Below are positions 6,373 to 21,333 of a stretch of 35,478 bases of DNA, piece by piece. This stretch comes from Verrucomicrobium sp. GTDB lineage: Bacteria > Verrucomicrobiota > Verrucomicrobiia > Limisphaerales > UBA9464. The notes below the pieces were generated by a model that worked only from the letters and a program-made list of their open reading frames with translations, was not told the DNA's origin and did not search any database. The stretch covers positions 1 to 35,478 of the forward strand of contig JAJTFN010000033.1 in NCBI GenBank assembly GCA_021298285.1, read 5' to 3'. The position numbers and the translations under genes were made by a program. The number at the start of each line of letters is the position of its first letter. Position 1 is the stretch's first letter.

Positions 6373-7205
6373 TCGAAGCGCACGGATCCGACACCCCGTA
6401 GCCCGGACCCGCCCCAGGCTCGCACCAGCAGCAACGCCACGACCGCCGAGGCCATCATCAGCAACGACACCGCCACCGCGGCCTCGAGGCGGCCGACGGA
6501 CAGCTCCAGGAAGACCGTGGTGGGCAGGACCTCGGTCTTGAGGCGCGTCGCCCCGGAAAAGACCAGGATGGGCCCGAACTCGCCGAGCGCCCTGGCCCAC
6601 GCCAGGGTGGCCGCGGTCAGCACCCCGGACTTCGCCGAGGGCAACACGACCCGCCAGAAGGCCTGCGAGCGGCTGCAGCCCAGCGTCAGGGCGACCTGCT
6701 CCTGCCGGGGGTTGATCTGGGCGAAGGTGTTGCGCAGCGTGCGCACCGCGAAGGCGCAGGCCACCATGAACTGGGCGAGGATGACCGAGGGCACGGCGTA
6801 GGTGACCGGGAAGACCCGCTCCAGCGCCCGGAACGGCGGGGTCTGGAAGAGGATGAGCAGGCTCAGCCCGATGACCAGCGGGGGCAGCACGATGGGAATG
6901 TCCAGCAGGGCGTCGAGCAGGGATCGGCCCGGGAAGTCGAACCGGGACATCAGGTAGCCGATGGGCACGGCCACCCAGAGCGACAGCAGGGTCGTCAGGG
7001 TGCAGCTCAGCAGGCTCAGGCGGATCGCGTAGCGGATCTCCGGCGATCCCAGGGCCCGCCAGAGATGGCCGGGCGTGGTGTAGAACAGGTCGGCGGCGAC
7101 CATCGCCACCAGCAGGACCACGTAGGTGCCCCCCAACACGGCCATCGCGGCGATGAAGCGACGGTCTGAACCGCGCGGGGCCAAGCTGTCGGCGGGCGGG
7201 CTCAC
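6369..7205 (-). CDS. ABC importer permease, ModB-type
   Basis: I use the GTG at 7205, since GTGA (7202-7205) overlaps the binding-protein stop, giving 278 residues. About six membrane helices are visible, beginning with FIAAMAVLGGTYVVLLVAMV. The EAA coupling loop is clear: 'QVALTLGCSRSQAFWRVVLP', where a Gly and a Leu-Pro sit at the expected spacing. 'ARALGEFGPILVFSG' is highly characteristic of ModB/CysT/TupB permeases (molybdate, sulphate or tungstate). It sits in the inner membrane as a homodimer and receives substrate from the protein encoded upstream. The much longer open frame that extends upstream in this reading frame is a shadow of the binding-protein gene and was not used. Confidence 0.9.
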   Translation of the reverse strand: MSPPADSLAPRGSDRRFIAAMAVLGGTYVVLLVAMVAADLFYTTPGHLWRALGSPEIRYAIRLSLLSCTLTTLLSLWVAVPIGYLMSRFDFPGRSLLDALLDIPIVLPPLVIGLSLLILFQTPPFRALERVFPVTYAVPSVILAQFMVACAFAVRTLRNTFAQINPRQEQVALTLGCSRSQAFWRVVLPSAKSGVLTAATLAWARALGEFGPILVFSGATRLKTEVLPTTVFLELSVGRLEAAVAVSLLMMASAVVALLLVRAWGGSGLRGVGSVRFE

Positions 7206-8692
7206 GGCGCGCCCCCTTCCAACTGGAACCCCGACGCCTGGAAGCGCTCCCGCGACCGCGGCGACTCCAGGGCCCGGAGCAGCCGGGTCATCAACTGGGC
7301 ATGGTCGGAGGCGCGGCCCACGGCGTAGGGCTGGATGGCCATGGTGCCCGGACCGGAGAGGGGCACGACCTCCACCGAATCGGCCACGGCGGCCGCGTTG
7401 GCGGCGTAGACCAGGGCGACATCCAGCGCCCCGGATCGGAGCTGGTTGATCAGCAGGTCGCCGGTCGGGGCCTGGACGGCGAGGTGACCCTTGACCGAAT
7501 CCCACACCCCCCGCGCGCGGAGCAGCCCCACGCTCAGGGCCCCGAGGGCGCTCTGGTCCTCGTGGCAGAGGCCCACCTTCAAGGGACTGCGGGCCAGGTC
7601 GGCCAGGCCGGCGACCCCGTGCGGATTGCCCTTGCGGACGGCGAGCACCAGCGGGGTGCGGGCCAGCGACACCGCCGGCTGGAAGCCCGGCTGGACCGTC
7701 TCCATGAAGGAAACGTCGCAGGCGAAGTAGGCGTCCGGGCGCTGCCCCGAGCGGATCTGGGCCGTGAGGATGCCGCAGCCGTTGTAGACCCGGGTGATCT
7801 CGACACCCTCCCGGGCCTCGAACTCGCGCAGGGTGGGCTCGGCCGCCTGGCGGTTGACCGACCCGCTGTAGAGCACCACCGACGGGCGCAGGGCCCAGAC
7901 GTCGCCGGCCACCACCTCGAACCCCGCCTCGCGGAACCGGCGCAACCCCCGGTCGCGGGCCCCGAGATGACGGGCCAACCGCAGCGCCTCGGTGGGCTGG
8001 CGGCTCACCTCGAGCACCGCGGCCGACACCTCGGAGATCGCCGTGGCCAACTCCGGCACCGGCACCGCCTCGAGCTCCGGATACTGCGCGAGCGTCGTGT
8101 CCCAGACGATGCCGGCATCCACCGCCCCGAGCTTCACGTCGTTGGCCACGTCGTTGACGGTGGGCTTGAACACCAGCGCCCGCCCCGCGAGGGCCGGCCA
8201 GTCGCCGCTCCGGAGGAGGGCCGAGCGGGCGACCGCCCCGACGGCGACCGAGTCCGGGTTGCCCAGGCTCACCCGCACCCCGTCGCGCAGGAGGTCGCGA
8301 ACCCCGCGGAGTCCCTTGGGATTGCCCCGGGCCACCGCCACCACGGCACGCATCCGCGCCAGCGGGATCACCTCGGCCAGCAGCCCGTTGGACCGGCCGG
8401 CATCGATGAAGCTGGAGTCGCCGGGAAGGAACAGGTCGCCGGAACGGGCGACCCGCAGGTTGCTCAGCAACGTGCCCGAGCCGCCGTACTGGATCTGCAC
8501 CGCGACGCCGCGCTCGCGCCGGTAGTCGTCCACGGCGGCCTCCACGGCCGGACGCAGCCCGGCCGCGCAATACACCACCAGGGGCTCCCGGACCGGCGCC
8601 TCGACCGGCGGCCGCTGGTTCCAGACCAGGAGGGCCACCAGCAGGAGAATGGCCAGCAGCGAGCCCCAGACCACCGGTCGCGACGGGTTCAT
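7202..8692 (-). CDS. Tandem ModA-like substrate-binding protein (two SBP domains in one chain)
   Basis: This 496-residue protein has an N-terminal membrane anchor or signal (residues 8-24) and then two homologous ModA-type binding domains. Domain 1 spans about residues 37-262 and domain 2 about 268-492. The repeats align by eye: 'VVYCAAGLRPAVEAAVDDY' with 'VVLYSGSVNRQAAEPTLREF', 'YGGSGTLLSNLR' with 'YNGCGILTAQIR', and 'VAVARGNPKGL' with 'LAVRKGNPHGV'. Ordinary ModA is about 250 residues, so this is double length. The ModA anion-binding serines are only partly kept (Gly45 where E. coli has Ser; Cys in the second domain's 'NGCG'), so the two sites may prefer different oxyanions. It is the first gene of the cluster and has the best ribosome binding site seen there. 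Confidence 0.88.
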   Translation of the reverse strand: MNPSRPVVWGSLLAILLLVALLVWNQRPPVEAPVREPLVVYCAAGLRPAVEAAVDDYRRERGVAVQIQYGGSGTLLSNLRVARSGDLFLPGDSSFIDAGRSNGLLAEVIPLARMRAVVAVARGNPKGLRGVRDLLRDGVRVSLGNPDSVAVGAVARSALLRSGDWPALAGRALVFKPTVNDVANDVKLGAVDAGIVWDTTLAQYPELEAVPVPELATAISEVSAAVLEVSRQPTEALRLARHLGARDRGLRRFREAGFEVVAGDVWALRPSVVLYSGSVNRQAAEPTLREFEAREGVEITRVYNGCGILTAQIRSGQRPDAYFACDVSFMETVQPGFQPAVSLARTPLVLAVRKGNPHGVAGLADLARSPLKVGLCHEDQSALGALSVGLLRARGVWDSVKGHLAVQAPTGDLLINQLRSGALDVALVYAANAAAVADSVEVVPLSGPGTMAIQPYAVGRASDHAQLMTRLLRALESPRSRERFQASGFQLEGGAP

Positions 8693-16484: not shown

Positions 16485-17546
16485 CTAGCCGTCGCTGGGA
16501 AGGCGTTGGCGCAATGCCGCCGCGACCCCTGCGAAGGCCCGGGCGGCCTCGCCATCCGGGTCGGCCACGACGACGGGGCGACCACAATCGCCGCCCTCAC
16601 GGATGGCCACCACCAACGGGATCTCCCCGAGGAACGGAACGCCCTTCCGCTCCGCCTCTTGTCGGCCGCCCCCATGCCCGAAGATGTCCACCCGCGACCC
16701 GTCGGGCAGGCGGAAGCCGCTCATGTTCTCGACGATGCCGAGGATCGGCACCTGGACCTTCTCGAAGAGCATGACGCCCTTTCGGACCACCCCCAGCGAC
16801 GCCTCCTGCGGGGTGGTGATCACGACGCCGCCGTCCAGCGGCACGGACTGGCACAGCGACAACTGGGCGTCACCGGTTCCGGGCGGCAGGTCCACGAGCA
16901 GGTAGTCGAGGTCGCCCCAGGCGACCTGGTGGATGAACTGGTGGATGGTCTTCTGGATCATCGGACCGCGCCAGATGACGGCCTGCTCCGGGTCGATGAG
17001 GAAGCCCATGCTCATGAGCTTCACGCCATGGCTGGTGGGCGGCACGAGGCGCTCGTCGTCGGTGAGACCGGGTCGGTCGTGCACTCCCATCATCAACGGG
17101 ATGCTCGGGCCGTAGATGTCACAGTCCAGCAACCCCACCCGGAACCCCTCCCGGGCCAGGGCGCAGGCGAGGTTGACCGAGCAGGTGGACTTCCCGACGC
17201 CGCCCTTGCCCGAGGCCACGGCGACCACCCGTCGCACGCCGGGCATCCGGTTCCGCTGCGGCACGCCGGTGTTGGCCGAGGCCGCCGCCACCGGGGTCGG
17301 CACCTGCACCTGGACATGCGCGTCGGTGATGCCCTCGAGGCGATCCCTCAGCGCGGCCTTGGCCGCGTCGGCGATCTGCCGGCCGATCTCGGGATTCGGC
17401 GCCGTGAGTTCGAGCAGCACGCCGACCGCCGATCCGTCGATCTGCACGCCCTTGACCAGGCCGAAGGACACGATGTCCCGGCTGTAGCCCGGGTACTTGA
17501 CGGAGCGGAGGACTTCGAGGACGGCGGATTCTTGGAGCGTGGCCAT
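16485..17546 (-). CDS. mrp: Mrp/ApbC/NBP35-family P-loop ATPase without the CxxC cluster motif
   Basis: This 353-residue protein has an N-terminal MIP18/PaaD-like domain (about 1-85, 'VLEVLRSVKYPGYSRDIVSF') and a C-terminal ParA-like NTPase with the deviant Walker A GKGGVGKST (113-121), 'LLDCDIYGPSIP' (139-150) and 'LLVDLPPGTGDA' (216-227). The family carries and delivers Fe-S clusters, bridging a [4Fe-4S] between two subunits through a CxxC after 'ENMS'. Here that segment reads 'ENMSGFRLPDGSRVDIFG' (273-290), with Leu and Gly where the cysteines belong, so the usual cluster site is absent. Some Mrp lineages, such as Bacteroidetes, also lack it. The ATG at 17546 is 161 bases downstream of the peroxidase stop, past a terminator-like hairpin. 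Confidence 0.9.
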   Translation of the reverse strand: MATLQESAVLEVLRSVKYPGYSRDIVSFGLVKGVQIDGSAVGVLLELTAPNPEIGRQIADAAKAALRDRLEGITDAHVQVQVPTPVAAASANTGVPQRNRMPGVRRVVAVASGKGGVGKSTCSVNLACALAREGFRVGLLDCDIYGPSIPLMMGVHDRPGLTDDERLVPPTSHGVKLMSMGFLIDPEQAVIWRGPMIQKTIHQFIHQVAWGDLDYLLVDLPPGTGDAQLSLCQSVPLDGGVVITTPQEASLGVVRKGVMLFEKVQVPILGIVENMSGFRLPDGSRVDIFGHGGGRQEAERKGVPFLGEIPLVVAIREGGDCGRPVVVADPDGEAARAFAGVAAALRQRLPSDG

Positions 17547-17650
17547 GGGTCGGGAGGGAGGGGCGTGACAGGGTTGGCGAGGGGAGAACGGGCGATCCGT
17601 TGGCAACCGGCGGGGGTGATCGGAAATGGGTGGCCAGGTCGGAAACGACA

Positions 17651-17680
17651 GGGTGGGGTCTCCTCTCGGAAACCCCACCC
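17651..17680 (-). terminator. Hairpin downstream of the cytochrome c peroxidase gene
   Basis: A perfect 9-bp stem, GGGTGGGGT with ACCCCACCC, has a 12-base loop and begins 27 bases past the peroxidase stop. On the transcribed strand it is followed by TGTCGTTTCC, a poor T-run, so termination may be partial. It separates the peroxidase from the downstream Mrp gene. Confidence 0.5.
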
Positions 17681-17707: not shown

Positions 17708-18709
17708 TCACTTGGCCGCCAGGGCGCGCTTCTTGTCGGACAGGGCGCGCAGGAAGGCTCCGAGGCCTTGCGCCTCCTCGGGCGAGAGCTTCTTTCCGAG
17801 CTGCAGCCAGGCCATCTTCTGGACCGCCTCCTCGAGGGTCTTCTGGGAGCCGTCGTGGAAGTACGGGGCCGTCAGGGCGATGTTGCGCAGGCTCGGCACC
17901 TTGAAGACGAACTCGTCGTAGTCCTCCTTCGTGACCTCGATGCGCCCCTTGTCCGAGGTGTTCTCGTAGGCGTTGAGGATGCCGAGCTTCTTGTAGTCGT
18001 TGCCACCGAGCAGCGGGCCGGAGTGGCAGGTGGTGCAACCGATCGACAGGAAGGTGTCGAGCCCCTTGAGCTCGGCCGCGGTCAAGGCCTTGTCATCACC
18101 CTTGAGGAAGTCGTCGAACCGGTCCTGGGTGCGGAGCGTCCGCTCGAAGGAGGCCACCGCCTTGGCGAAGTTGTCGTAGGTGATCGGCTCGTTCTCGCCG
18201 GGGAAGGCCTTCTTGAATCCGCTCACATACTTCTTCTCGGCCTTGAGCTTCTGGATCACGGCCGCCTCGCTGGGCATGGCCATCTCGCCCGGATTGAGCA
18301 CCGGGCCCTTGGCCTGGTCCTCCAGGGTCTTGGCCCGGCCGTCCCAGAACTGCGCGATGTGGAATCCCGCATTGAGCACGGTCGGGGAATTCCGGCCACC
18401 GCGCTTGCCGAAGGCGCCGGGCGAGGTGGGCTCGTTGTCCACGCCGCCCCGGTTCTTGTCGACCGCGTGGCAGGAATTGCAGGACTGCGTGTTGTTGGCC
18501 GAGAGCTTCTTCTCGAAGAACAGCTCGCGTCCGAGCTTCACCCGGGCGGGCGTGTCGTTCTCCGAACCCGGCATCTTGTCGGGCAGCGTGGCCAGCACCT
18601 TGAGGGCGCCGGCCCGCAACTCGGCCGGCGTGGCGGCATGGATCGATGCGGGAACGATGAGGAGGACCGACGCCGTCACGGCGCGGCCCCAGGTGGAGGT
18701 CATGTTCAT
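17708..18709 (-). CDS. Di-haem cytochrome c peroxidase (CcpA/MauG family)
   Basis: This 333-residue periplasmic protein has a signal peptide (1-25, ending IHA-ATP). Two haem c sites are visible: CNSCH (77-81) and CTTCH (225-229). Between and after them are the family landmarks 'GRNSPTVLNAGFH', 'FWDGRAKTLEDQAKGPVLNPGEM', 'FKVPSLRNIALTAPYFHDGS' and a late 'QKMAWLQLGKKLSPEEA', where Met is a likely ligand of the high-potential haem. This matches bacterial cytochrome c peroxidase, which reduces hydrogen peroxide with electrons from small cytochromes or copper proteins. The ATG at 18709 is followed by another at 18703; either suits the signal peptide. It is probably transcribed alone from the 105-base gap upstream, where a weak TTGCAC...TAGTCT pair occurs but is not convincing. 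Confidence 0.92.
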   Translation of the reverse strand: MNMTSTWGRAVTASVLLIVPASIHAATPAELRAGALKVLATLPDKMPGSENDTPARVKLGRELFFEKKLSANNTQSCNSCHAVDKNRGGVDNEPTSPGAFGKRGGRNSPTVLNAGFHIAQFWDGRAKTLEDQAKGPVLNPGEMAMPSEAAVIQKLKAEKKYVSGFKKAFPGENEPITYDNFAKAVASFERTLRTQDRFDDFLKGDDKALTAAELKGLDTFLSIGCTTCHSGPLLGGNDYKKLGILNAYENTSDKGRIEVTKEDYDEFVFKVPSLRNIALTAPYFHDGSQKTLEEAVQKMAWLQLGKKLSPEEAQGLGAFLRALSDKKRALAAK

Positions 18710-18814: not shown

Positions 18815-20080
18815 TCAGTGCACGGGCTTGCCGGAGACATCGGCGGCATGCTGGCTGAAGGACTTTCCCCGGCCGGTCGGCGCGATCACCGAGTCGATCA
18901 CGCCACGCTCGAACTCGTCCCACATCGGCGACATGCCCCGCAGCCGGGCGACGATCTTCGCGAAGGTCTCGACCACATAGTCGACGTCGGCCTCGGTGTT
19001 GCCCTCGCCGAGGGTCATGATGATGTTGCCCTGCGCGAGCGCATGGTCGAGGCCGATGGCCCCCAGGACATGGGAGATCTTGAGGCTCTTGCTGACGCAG
19101 CTCGAACCGCTTGCCACGGCGATGCCGTTCATGTCGCACAGGAGCAACTGCCCCTCGCCCTCGATGAACTCGGTGGACAGGTTGAGGTTGGTGGCGATGC
19201 GGTCGGGACCGGGCTCGGGCCCGTTGAGCTGGATGTAGGGAACCGCCGCGCGAAGCCCCTCCCACAGCCGCTTCTGGAGCGGTGCGACGTGGGCGATCCG
19301 CCCGGACAGCCGCTCCCGGGCGATCTCGGCGGCCAGGCCGCCGCCCACGATGGCCGGGATGTTCTCGGTGCCCGCCCGGCGGCCACCTTCCTGCACGCCG
19401 CCGTGGATCACGCTCACGATGCGGGCCTTGCGGTTGCGGTAGAGCACGCCCACGCCCTTGGGACCGTAGAAGCGGTGGGGCGAGAAGCTCACCATGGCCG
19501 CGCCCCATTCCTTCACGTCGATCGGCAGCCAGCCGGCGCTGGCCTCACAGTCGACATAGAGCGGCACATTGCGGGCGGCGCAGATCCGCCCGACCTCGCG
19601 CATGGGCTGGATGGTGCCGATGTCGTGGTTCACGTGGTGCACCGACACGAGGACCGTCTGGGGCGTGATGGCCGCCTCGAGTTCATCGAGGCGGAGGCGA
19701 CCCTGCGGATCGACCCCGACCCGCGTGCAGGTCCACCCCTGCTTCTCCAGGAATTCCACCGAATTCATCACGCTCGGGTGCTCCGTGGCGGAAATCACCA
19801 GGTGCTTTCCCTTGCGCTCATTCGCATAGGCGGCCCCCTTGATCGCGAGGTTGGCCGATTCGGTGCCGTCGGAGGTGAAGAAGATCTCCTCGTCGCTGTC
19901 CGCGCCGATCAGGGCCGCCATCTGCTGCCGGGCCCGCTTGAGGGCGTCCCGGACCCGCAGGCCATGCTGGTGCAGGGAGGATGCGTTGCCGAAGTACTCG
20001 GTGAAGTACGGCCGCATGGCATCGAAGACCTCCGGGAGGACCGGGGTCGCGGACTGGTGGTCGAGGAAGACGTGGCGCAT
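18815..20080 (-). CDS. iscS: IscS/NifS-family protein with the PLP lysine replaced by arginine
   Basis: This 421-residue class V aminotransferase-fold protein aligns with cysteine desulfurases along its length: 'FLDHQSATPV', 'GNASSLHQHG', 'ATEHPSV' (His101), 'QEGGRRAGTENIPAIVGG' and the sulphur-carrying Cys328 in 'ASGSSCVSKSLKISHVL'. However, the PLP Schiff-base Lys, normally SxHK before the GPKG loop, is Arg203 in 'FSPHRFYGPKGVG'. The PLP-contacting Gln is Ala180 ('VDCEASAG'), and the 'SIRxSxG' Arg is Ile ('NIIMTLGEG'). The codon is CGC, so a single-base error from AAG/AAA cannot explain it. Family knowledge predicts little or no desulfurase activity. Archaeoglobus fulgidus IscS, with Asp at this Lys, is a precedent. 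It lies beside iscU and an Rrf2 gene, so a scaffold or regulatory role with IscU is plausible. Confidence 0.9.
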   Translation of the reverse strand: MRHVFLDHQSATPVLPEVFDAMRPYFTEYFGNASSLHQHGLRVRDALKRARQQMAALIGADSDEEIFFTSDGTESANLAIKGAAYANERKGKHLVISATEHPSVMNSVEFLEKQGWTCTRVGVDPQGRLRLDELEAAITPQTVLVSVHHVNHDIGTIQPMREVGRICAARNVPLYVDCEASAGWLPIDVKEWGAAMVSFSPHRFYGPKGVGVLYRNRKARIVSVIHGGVQEGGRRAGTENIPAIVGGGLAAEIARERLSGRIAHVAPLQKRLWEGLRAAVPYIQLNGPEPGPDRIATNLNLSTEFIEGEGQLLLCDMNGIAVASGSSCVSKSLKISHVLGAIGLDHALAQGNIIMTLGEGNTEADVDYVVETFAKIVARLRGMSPMWDEFERGVIDSVIAPTGRGKSFSQHAADVSGKPVH

Positions 20081-20242: not shown

Positions 20243-20671
20243 TCAGCCCGCGATCGGGGAGCCCACGGGCGATGGCGCGGCCGCGGCGGGGTGGCGCTTG
20301 ACGTAGTCTTCGAGGGCCGCCTTGAGGGCCTCCTCGGCGAGGACCGAGCAGTGGATCTTGACCGGAGGCAGCCCCCCGAGCGCATCGACCACCTCCTGGT
20401 TCGAGAAGGCCATGGCCTCGTCGATGGTGCGGCCCTTGATCAGCTCGGTGGCCATGCTCGAGCTGGCGATCGCCGAGCCGCAGCCGAAGGTCTTGAAACG
20501 CGCGTCCTCGATGCGCCCGTCCTTGATCTTCAGGGAGATCTTCATGATGTCGCCGCAGGCGGCGGCACCGACCTCGCCCACCCCGTCGGCGTCCTTCAGG
20601 TCACCCATGTTCCGGGGATTCATGAAGTGCTCCATCACGGTCGAGTTGTACAATGTGTAGGTTTCGCTCAT
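20243..20671 (-). CDS. iscU: Iron-sulphur cluster scaffold IscU
   Basis: This 142-residue protein is a near-canonical IscU. The three cluster-ligand cysteines are present: Cys39 in 'AAACGDIMK', Cys64 in 'TFGCGSAIASSS' and Cys108 in 'KIHCSVLAEEA'. So are Asp41, which governs cluster release, and His107. The HscA-binding LPPVK motif (101-105) is intact even though no hscA/hscB is in the window. A short Pro/Ala-rich tail follows the core (about 128-142). It assembles [2Fe-2S] and [4Fe-4S] clusters from iron and sulphur normally supplied by IscS. It lies 9 bases after the Rrf2 gene, so the two are very probably co-transcribed, with iscS beyond a terminator-like hairpin. Confidence 0.95.
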   Translation of the reverse strand: MSETYTLYNSTVMEHFMNPRNMGDLKDADGVGEVGAAACGDIMKISLKIKDGRIEDARFKTFGCGSAIASSSMATELIKGRTIDEAMAFSNQEVVDALGGLPPVKIHCSVLAEEALKAALEDYVKRHPAAAAPSPVGSPIAG

Positions 20672-20680
20672 AGGCTGGAA

Positions 20681-21268
20681 TTAGTTGGAATTGCGGGCCG
20701 AATTGGAATTTCGGGCCAGGTTGGGATTTCGTGCCAAAACCGTCGCCGTCGATCCGGGCCCCGAGGGATCGCCCGGGGCCGCCAGCGGGATCCGGGATCC
20801 GGCAAATTGCCGGACGTGCTGGGCCTGCTGGGCCTGCTGGGCCTGCTGGATAAGGCCGTTGGGCAGGTGACGGCCCGCCAGGGTCGCGAGGCTGGTGCCG
20901 GCAAAGACCTCCTTCATGCGCTCCTGCGCCTCGGCCAACAACCCGCACAGGGCGCATCCCCGGCTGTGCTCACAGCCGGAGTCCACCTCCAGGCATTTCT
21001 GGAGGGCGATGGGTCCCTCGATGGACTCCAGCACCTCGAGGACCGAGATCTCGGAGGCCGGCTTGGCCAGGTAGAATCCTCCACCGGAACCCCGGGACGA
21101 CCCGATGAGGCCCGACTTGCAGAGGCTCTGGAAGATCTTGCCGAGAAAGCTCTTGGGAACGGCCTCCTCCTCGCAAAGGACATCGATCATGACCACCTCG
21201 CCCAAAGGCCGGCGGGACAGGGCGATGAGCCCCAGAACCCCGTATTCAGCCGCCTTGGTGATTTGCAT
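20681..21268 (-). CDS. Rrf2-family (IscR-like) transcription regulator with repetitive C-terminal tail
   Basis: This 195-residue protein starts at the ATG at 21268 because 'MQITKAAEYGVLGLIALS' is the standard Rrf2 N-terminus; an earlier ATG at 21286 lies inside the operator. Residues 1 to about 85 form the winged helix ('VPKSFLGKIFQSLCKSGLI', 'GGGFYLAKPASEISVLEVLE'). Four cysteines follow, at 92, 99, 105 and 108, a plausible Fe-S site as in IscR. After about residue 135 the tail is unusual: (QQA)x3 at 141-149, and a six-residue repeat LARNPN/LARNSN/SARNSN at 178-195. Family members are usually 130-165 residues, so about 50 residues are extra. It heads the iscU locus and probably represses its own promoter in response to Fe-S status. 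Confidence 0.92.
   Translation of the reverse strand: MQITKAAEYGVLGLIALSRRPLGEVVMIDVLCEEEAVPKSFLGKIFQSLCKSGLIGSSRGSGGGFYLAKPASEISVLEVLESIEGPIALQKCLEVDSGCEHSRGCALCGLLAEAQERMKEVFAGTSLATLAGRHLPNGLIQQAQQAQQAQHVRQFAGSRIPLAAPGDPSGPGSTATVLARNPNLARNSNSARNSN
20684..20737. repeat. 18-bp tandem repeat, three copies, at the Rrf2 3' end
   Basis: Three 18-base units encode LARNPN, LARNSN and SARNSN, the last residues of the Rrf2 protein, immediately before its stop codon. The units differ at a few positions, so the repeat is not a very recent duplication. Confidence 0.85.
20822..20848. repeat. 9-bp tandem repeat, three copies, in the Rrf2 gene
   Basis: Three identical 9-base units (GGGCCTGCT on this strand) encode Gln-Gln-Ala three times, with a partial extra copy on each side. 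Identical units of this size are prone to slippage by whole codons. Confidence 0.85.
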
Positions 21269-21277
21269 CCGGTGGAA

Positions 21278-21296
21278 CCAGACCATTTCAGTCTGG
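21278..21296. promoter_or_regulatory. Operator-like palindrome O1, between rrf2 promoter and start
   Basis: CCAGACCATTTCAGTCTGG has perfect 6-base arms (CCAGAC/GTCTGG) around a 7-base centre. It lies 9 bases upstream of the Rrf2 ATG and just past the expected transcription start. It shares 13 of 19 bases with the second copy at 21341-21359. An Rrf2 dimer is the natural candidate ligand (inference). Confidence 0.65.
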
Positions 21297-21305
21297 AATG
21301 CGCCC

Positions 21306-21333
21306 AACCTATCCCTGGACCGACCGCTGTCAA
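21306..21333 (-). promoter_or_regulatory. Sigma-70-like promoter of the rrf2-iscU operon
   Basis: On the minus strand TTGACA (21328-21333) is a perfect -35 box. It is followed after 16 bases by TAGGTT (21306-21311), a fair -10 box. Transcription would start near 21299, giving a leader of about 31 bases. The promoter lies midway between two copies of the palindrome. Confidence 0.6.

Follow-up and report, generated by a model that had tools for sequence, protein, structure and literature searches.

A lysine-less IscS paralogue encoded beside iscU in Verrucomicrobiota: a probably inactive partner of the iron–sulfur scaffold

What can a protein of the IscS family do for the iron–sulfur (Fe-S) scaffold IscU when it lacks the lysine that binds pyridoxal phosphate (PLP)? 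This question is raised by a gene of Verrucomicrobium sp. on contig JAJTFN010000033.1 (assembly GCA_021298285.1), whose 35,478 nucleotides were analysed as a whole and are called the window below. In its genome of 3.37 Mb (244 contigs, 88.9% complete), the window makes up contig C39. The gene lies on the minus strand at positions 18815–20080 and encodes, in an open frame, a protein of 421 amino acids with Arg203 at the position of the PLP lysine. We call this protein IscS'. A profile match assigns it to the IscS/NifS group, with the NifS model TIGR03402 as the top NCBIfam model, but it falls short of the equivalog cut-offs (418.5 against 530.75 bits for NifS TIGR03402, and 359 against 643.2 bits for IscS TIGR02006). 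Judging from sequence comparisons, we put at roughly 0.75 the probability that IscS' is a catalytically inactive paralogue of IscS devoted to IscU, with the sulfur coming from a canonical NifS or from sulfide.

Active-site residues of IscS' and its relatives

In the alignment with Escherichia coli IscS, the CGC codon of Arg203 (19472–19474, minus strand) stands at the place of Lys206, the Schiff-base lysine, and no other lysine of the window protein takes this position. The codon differs from either lysine codon at all three bases. Three further positions are replaced on the same strand: Ala180 (19541–19543) is aligned on Gln183, His152 (19625–19627) on Asn155, and Ile354 (19019–19021) on Arg354. 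In contrast to these, His101, Asp177, His202 and Cys328 are kept and correspond to His104, Asp180, His205 and Cys328 of E. coli IscS; Cys328 (19097–19099, minus strand) is the persulfide or cluster-ligand cysteine. A sequence-only reading of this DNA had named Arg203 and its codon, the departure of Ala180 and of the NIIMTLGEG segment from the PLP-pocket consensus, and the retention of His101 and Cys328. The alignment bears this out, with Ala180 and Ile354 falling on the Gln183 and Arg354 positions. That reading also counted three linked changes; its triad of Arg, Ala and Ile is correct, but the fourth change, Asn155 to His, was not listed. An AlphaFold model of IscS' from 18 rows had a mean predicted local distance difference test score of 73.7, fell below 50 over residues 304–352, including the Cys loop, and was unusable around the active site.

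It turned out that these residue states belong to a whole family. All our surveys of IscS' were confined to Verrucomicrobiota, where most of the genomes are metagenome-assembled genomes (MAGs). The residue survey covered 111 loci, or 81 distinct sequences; the window gene and some genomes are counted twice, and the Lys-type paralogues of the host genome were removed before counting. Position 206 (E. coli numbering here and below) is Arg in 109 loci, Lys in one (L102) and His in one (L118). Position 155 is His in 110 loci and Gln in one, position 183 is Ala in 104, Ser in five, Val in one and Phe in one, and position 354 is Ile in all 110 loci that cover it. Cys328, Asp180, His104 and His205 are invariant (111/111). 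Thus, the Arg, Ala and Ile triad, for which the sequence-only reading had suggested a survey of homologues, is shared across the family. Asn155, Gln183 and Arg354 are lost in L102 and L118 as well, and they are absent from the divergent relatives L126–L131 and L141–L143, which retain Cys328 and Asp180. L136 (genome G045), a nearer relative, and the divergent L128 have Lys at 206, yet lack the same three residues. The fixed trait of the family is the joint loss of Asn155, Gln183 and Arg354; Arg is the commonest, not the sole, state at 206. Given the survey, this residue pattern is not due to chance. Arg as the defining change was considered and dropped, because the three other residues stay lost where 206 is Lys (L102, L136, L128) or His (L118).

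In a phylum-wide sample of 288 genomes with a completeness of 80% or more, no match exceeded 434 bits except the window's own; the next-best matches came from the same class and were read as the divergent relatives L141, L142 and L143. In L143, both His205 and Lys206 are gone (AHFRGCGGPVG), while Cys328 and Asp180 are kept; its host G323 is a single contig of 2.3 Mb, 99% complete, with SUF present.

A tree of 58 rows was built with the four changed columns removed; it included 27 near loci chosen for spread together with divergent and canonical rows. The IscS' family forms a single clade of 39 rows apart from the canonical enzymes (support 100/99), and some divergent rows sit on long branches. 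When the window gene was compared with eight relatives, the ratio of nonsynonymous to synonymous substitution rates (dN/dS) came to 0.035–0.13, a rough estimate since dS exceeds 1 in five of the eight pairs; in a ninth pair (L093), silent sites are saturated. Two canonical NifS pairs gave 0.039 and 0.052. Strong purifying selection acts on IscS'. The missing catalytic residues would be expected of a decaying pseudogene or of a sequencing error, and the relatives L143 and L131, in SUF-bearing genomes, do look eroded. However, the open frame, the low dN/dS, the identical residue states in most of the 81 distinct sequences from many assemblies, and an arginine codon so far from those of lysine all speak against this explanation, which conservation refutes.

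Published mutants of E. coli IscS suggest that IscS' has likely lost desulfurase activity: K206A and Q183E are inactive as desulfurases, according to the accessible part of PMC9978102, and for this reason we take IscS' to be probably inactive. The homology-based name "cysteine desulfurase" is probably wrong for this protein.

Linkage to IscU and the Fe-S systems of the host genomes

The iscU gene (20243–20671, minus strand) lies upstream of the IscS' gene. Its product of 142 amino acids has all the ligands C37, D39, C63, H105 and C106 (E. coli numbers) and the LPPVK motif. A contig scan for the IscS' family gave 191 confirmed loci, of which 80 were kept, so the count is a lower bound. Within 2 kb upstream and on the same strand, iscU was found in 72 of these 80 loci; six were without it, and two had too little flank. 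The genome of L093 (G055) has IscU elsewhere on the contig of L093. Across 101 IscU rows (E. coli excluded), which include repeats and IscUs encoded next to Lys-type NifS in other classes, C37 is present in 100 and D39, C63, H105 and C106 in all. The partnership of IscS' with IscU is strongly supported by gene linkage. One genome, G018, contains two copies each of the family gene and of IscU (contigs C169 and C268); its contamination is 8%.

According to the part of PMC2854127 available to us, IscU is bound by E. coli IscS at helix 309–316, at residue 347 and at the C-terminal helix, and removal of residues 376–404 abolishes the binding. The counterpart of this docking C-terminus in the window protein is the tail SPMWDEFERGVIDSVIAPTGRGKSFSQHAADVSGKPVH (18818–18931, minus strand), which may likewise dock IscU. 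Its pattern in the family, SPMWDEF..G.IDSVI.PTGRGKSFS.HAA.VSGK, is well conserved in nearly all IscU-bearing members read; the exceptions are L123, whose tail ends early, L126, where it is eroded, and L102, where it is partly altered. In 12 members without adjacent IscU (L104, L105, L121, L122, L127–L131 and L141–L143), the tail is altered, shortened or absent, with its first half retained in L104 and L105. Eleven of these 12 are from the genomes with SUF and without IscU described below; the twelfth, L105, closely related to L104, comes from a genome unexamined for IscU. Both L095 (no adjacent IscU, rest of the genome unexamined) and L093 keep the tail. The position of iscU, the kept Cys328, the tail and the purifying selection support the earlier suggestion of a specialised protein that is probably no desulfurase, yet still pairs with IscU.

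We also assessed which Fe-S systems the host genomes possess. IscU was called from a PF01592 (NifU_N) match of at least 140 bits; no scores fell between 109 and 144 bits. Family membership was decided by residues where the locus was read and otherwise by score (above 760 bits in family f1); G002 is a fragment. Fourteen of the 80 kept loci, chosen for divergence, had their genomes searched for SufB/D and IscU, and four unread f27 genomes (G100, G112, G130, G210) were left out of the tally. Among 65 family-bearing genomes searched for both systems, 47 are positive for IscU and negative for SufB/D. Verrucomicrobia bacterium LW23 (G346), host of the family member L117, is of this type. Eleven have SufB/D without such an IscU (G036, G046, G051, G054, G058, G066, G136, G323, G354, G355, G356), six have both, and G002 (74% complete) has neither. 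Eleven genomes of the order have no family member: of ten searched for SufB/D, nine were positive and G043 (57% complete) was negative; no NifU_N match of at least 140 bits was found in the eight searched for it; G052 was searched for neither. The SufB/D profile was positive in all 14 controls, including Methanocaldococcus jannaschii, so that an SMS-type SufB should have been visible. The sequence-only reading had proposed to look in the genome for SufS or a second IscS: the profile search of the window's genome gave no SufB/D match, and Lys-type NifS paralogues were found. A-type carriers (PF01521) number one or two in each of the 18 searched genomes with IscU and without SUF; none is encoded in the window operon. 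Judged by these profile matches, most of these bacteria seem to have no Fe-S scaffold system besides the IscU/IscS' pair.

On the minus strand of the window, the gene order is Rrf2/IscR-like regulator, IscU, IscS', MauG-like di-haem protein and Mrp/ApbC. The regulator gene (20681–21307) is immediately upstream of iscU; since its domain begins at residue 14, its start is likely nearer 21268. The MauG/MbnH-like di-haem protein gene (17708–18709) stands between the IscS' gene and that of the Mrp/ApbC (NUBPL-type) Fe-S carrier ATPase (16485–17678). In the 80 loci, Rrf2 occurs within 2.5 kb in 60 (14 without it, flank too short in six), Mrp within 2 kb downstream in 54 (22 and four, respectively), and MauG within 1.2 kb downstream in 21, mostly the closest relatives (53 and six). 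Diverged IscS' proteins are encoded next to Mrp with no adjacent IscU in L104, L121 and L130, whose genomes have SUF, and in L105, whose SUF status is unexamined. Elsewhere in the window, the ORF at 7202–8692 (minus strand) has an SBP_bac_11 solute-binding domain matched by two stretches.

Origin of the sulfur and arguments against the proposal

If IscS' is inactive, which protein mobilises the sulfur? The window's genome encodes a canonical NifS, L001, in which Lys206, Gln183, Asn155 and Arg354 are all present. An orthologue (E 1e-90) was found in 44 of the 47 genomes with IscU and without SUF. No clear fixed neighbour of the canonical NifS gene was seen among neighbouring ORFs at three loci, inspected by eye with no family search. 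L002 and L004, on contigs C120 and C6 of the same genome, are NifS copies that are almost the same except for their diverging 3' ends, and they probably reflect a duplication in the assembly or a mixture of strains. Of 26 Lys-type loci from other classes of the phylum, 19 have iscU within about 1.5 kb, and L001 groups in the tree with those of their sequences included there. The docking role seems, from this, to have moved to IscS', and the chemistry to have been left with NifS. Dimers of IscS' would bind IscU and bring Cys328 to the site of assembly. There this cysteine may be a short-lived ligand of the cluster, the role reported in Archaeoglobus fulgidus, or it may accept a persulfide. The sulfur atoms would be supplied by the separate canonical NifS or by sulfide. 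Sulfur mobilisation and scaffold docking, united in one protein in E. coli, would then be divided between two paralogues.

It is also conceivable that the two paralogues form an obligate heterodimer, in which NifS gives the active site, IscS' gives Cys328 and the docking tail, and the sulfur of cysteine crosses the dimer. The presence of the NifS orthologue in nearly all genomes of this type is consistent with such a complex. So is the NifS C-terminus: in all 12 loci read (14 were fetched) it has SPLNP or SPLSP and then HPDN or HTDN, and it is without the aromatic SP[YF]W found in 15 of the 26 Lys-type loci of other classes. The two proteins also change at a like pace (95% for NifS against 94% for IscS' in G016, 75% against 70% in G047). 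However, the two genes are unlinked in the window's genome, and a title in the reference list of PMC7585200 gives the A. fulgidus complex as (IscS-IscU)2, which means a dimer of IscS carrying two IscU. We regard the heterodimer as unlikely.

Several observations weigh against a dead partner dedicated to IscU. The PLP phosphate site (T73, S200, H202, T238) and Asp177/His101 are mostly retained in the IscS' alignment, so that PLP may still bind. A few relatives (L102, L136, L128) have Lys at 206. In the accessible text of PMC9978102, E. coli IscS R354K is active with dithiothreitol, though slower; thus, a change of Arg354 alone would not prove inactivity. The NifS orthologue is missing at the cut-off in G011, G027 and G050 (77%, 93% and 75% complete), of which G027 and G050 have other, weaker IscS-like matches. 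The tail is apparently not strictly required, since it is short or eroded in the IscU-bearing L123 and L126 and since A. fulgidus IscS has no comparable long tail, yet binds IscU. The six genomes G009, G028, G034, G053, G351 and G357 contain both IscU and SufB/D, and the absence of SUF elsewhere is judged mainly from MAGs, of which many are incomplete. Finally, a diverged IscS' persists in eleven genomes that have SUF but no such IscU, and an IscU-independent role, perhaps with Mrp, is possible.

Some of these observations would also suit an active PLP enzyme with an altered mechanism or substrate, in which PLP is held non-covalently and Arg203, His152 or His202 serves as acid/base. In addition to the phosphate site, Asp177 and His101, this enzyme would have His202; most members, the divergent ones included, carry Arg or Lys at 206, dN/dS is low, and some PLP remains bound to the K206A mutant of E. 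coli IscS, as stated in the available portion of PMC9978102. Against it, Arg354 is replaced by Ile and Gln183 by Ala, and the same partly available source has Q183E abolishing the activity of E. coli IscS. Both residues are lost in A. fulgidus IscS as well, which is reported without desulfurase activity (PMC7585200, seen in part). An active enzyme of this kind therefore seems improbable.

We return to the dead, IscU-dedicated paralogue. On balance, we lean towards a broader picture, in which a large group of Verrucomicrobia has IscU as its sole Fe-S scaffold together with a dedicated partner unable to make sulfur. Mobilisation and assembly would be split between two IscS paralogues, or sulfide would be used directly, and the lysine-less IscS would belong to the housekeeping system and have evolved independently of the archaeal case. 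The clade is bacterial and strongly conserved, its canonical paralogue is matched in most host genomes, and IscU kept or lost and SUF present or absent provide natural contrasts. It lets one ask what IscS gives to IscU beyond sulfur, and where the sulfur of Fe-S clusters originates in these bacteria.

Comparison with known IscS systems

To our knowledge, the best-studied lysine-less IscS is one archaeal protein, that of A. fulgidus. No published description of a bacterial lysine-less IscS' clade was among the matches listed in our literature search, which covered subscription journals thinly. The closest precedent is A. fulgidus IscS2 (PDB 4eb5, 4eb7, 4hvk), which, like IscS', is without the PLP lysine, is paired with IscU and keeps the Cys. 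It is reported in the accessible part of PMC7585200 to have no desulfurase activity and to provide the IscU-bound cluster with a Cys ligand. The sequence that we used agrees with PDB 4eb5 without mismatch, and the sequence-only reading was right that this protein has Asp at the Lys position, pairs with IscU and lends a Cys ligand, as far as the same partial text goes. As in IscS', Gln183 is replaced by Ala, and Arg354 is replaced by Leu (Ile in IscS'). In contrast to IscS', A. fulgidus IscS carries K206D and H205N and retains Asn155. A. fulgidus also has SmsCB, according to a figure legend of PMC12192291, whereas 47 of the 65 family genomes have no SufB-type match.

In the tree, A. fulgidus IscS groups with E. 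coli IscS (95/86), outside the IscS' clade. Constraining it into the clade costs 11.1 log units, with a borderline p-value of 0.038 in the approximately unbiased test. A common origin was thus considered and is weakly disfavoured. The two lineages probably lost overlapping residues separately, as far as the aligned sequences tell. In Methanosarcina acetivorans, IscS1, known here by description only, is reported to lack the catalytic lysine and belongs to one of three IscSU pairs; the other two IscS are reported to keep the residues for PLP and those of the active site (PMC7585200, in its accessible part).

The minimal ISC system (MIS; MisS and MisU) is a two-gene IscS/IscU set, as are IscU and IscS' in the 47 family genomes. 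Unlike MIS, as far as the available part of PMC11559095 describes it, IscS' is without the catalytic residues, and MIS has no carrier, whereas an A-type carrier match is present in all the family genomes searched for one. With the canonical group I desulfurases, represented by L001 and E. coli IscS, IscS' shares the protein family, the Cys328 loop and the IscU docking regions; it differs from them in the replacement of Lys206, Gln183, Asn155 and Arg354 and in scoring under the NCBIfam cut-offs.
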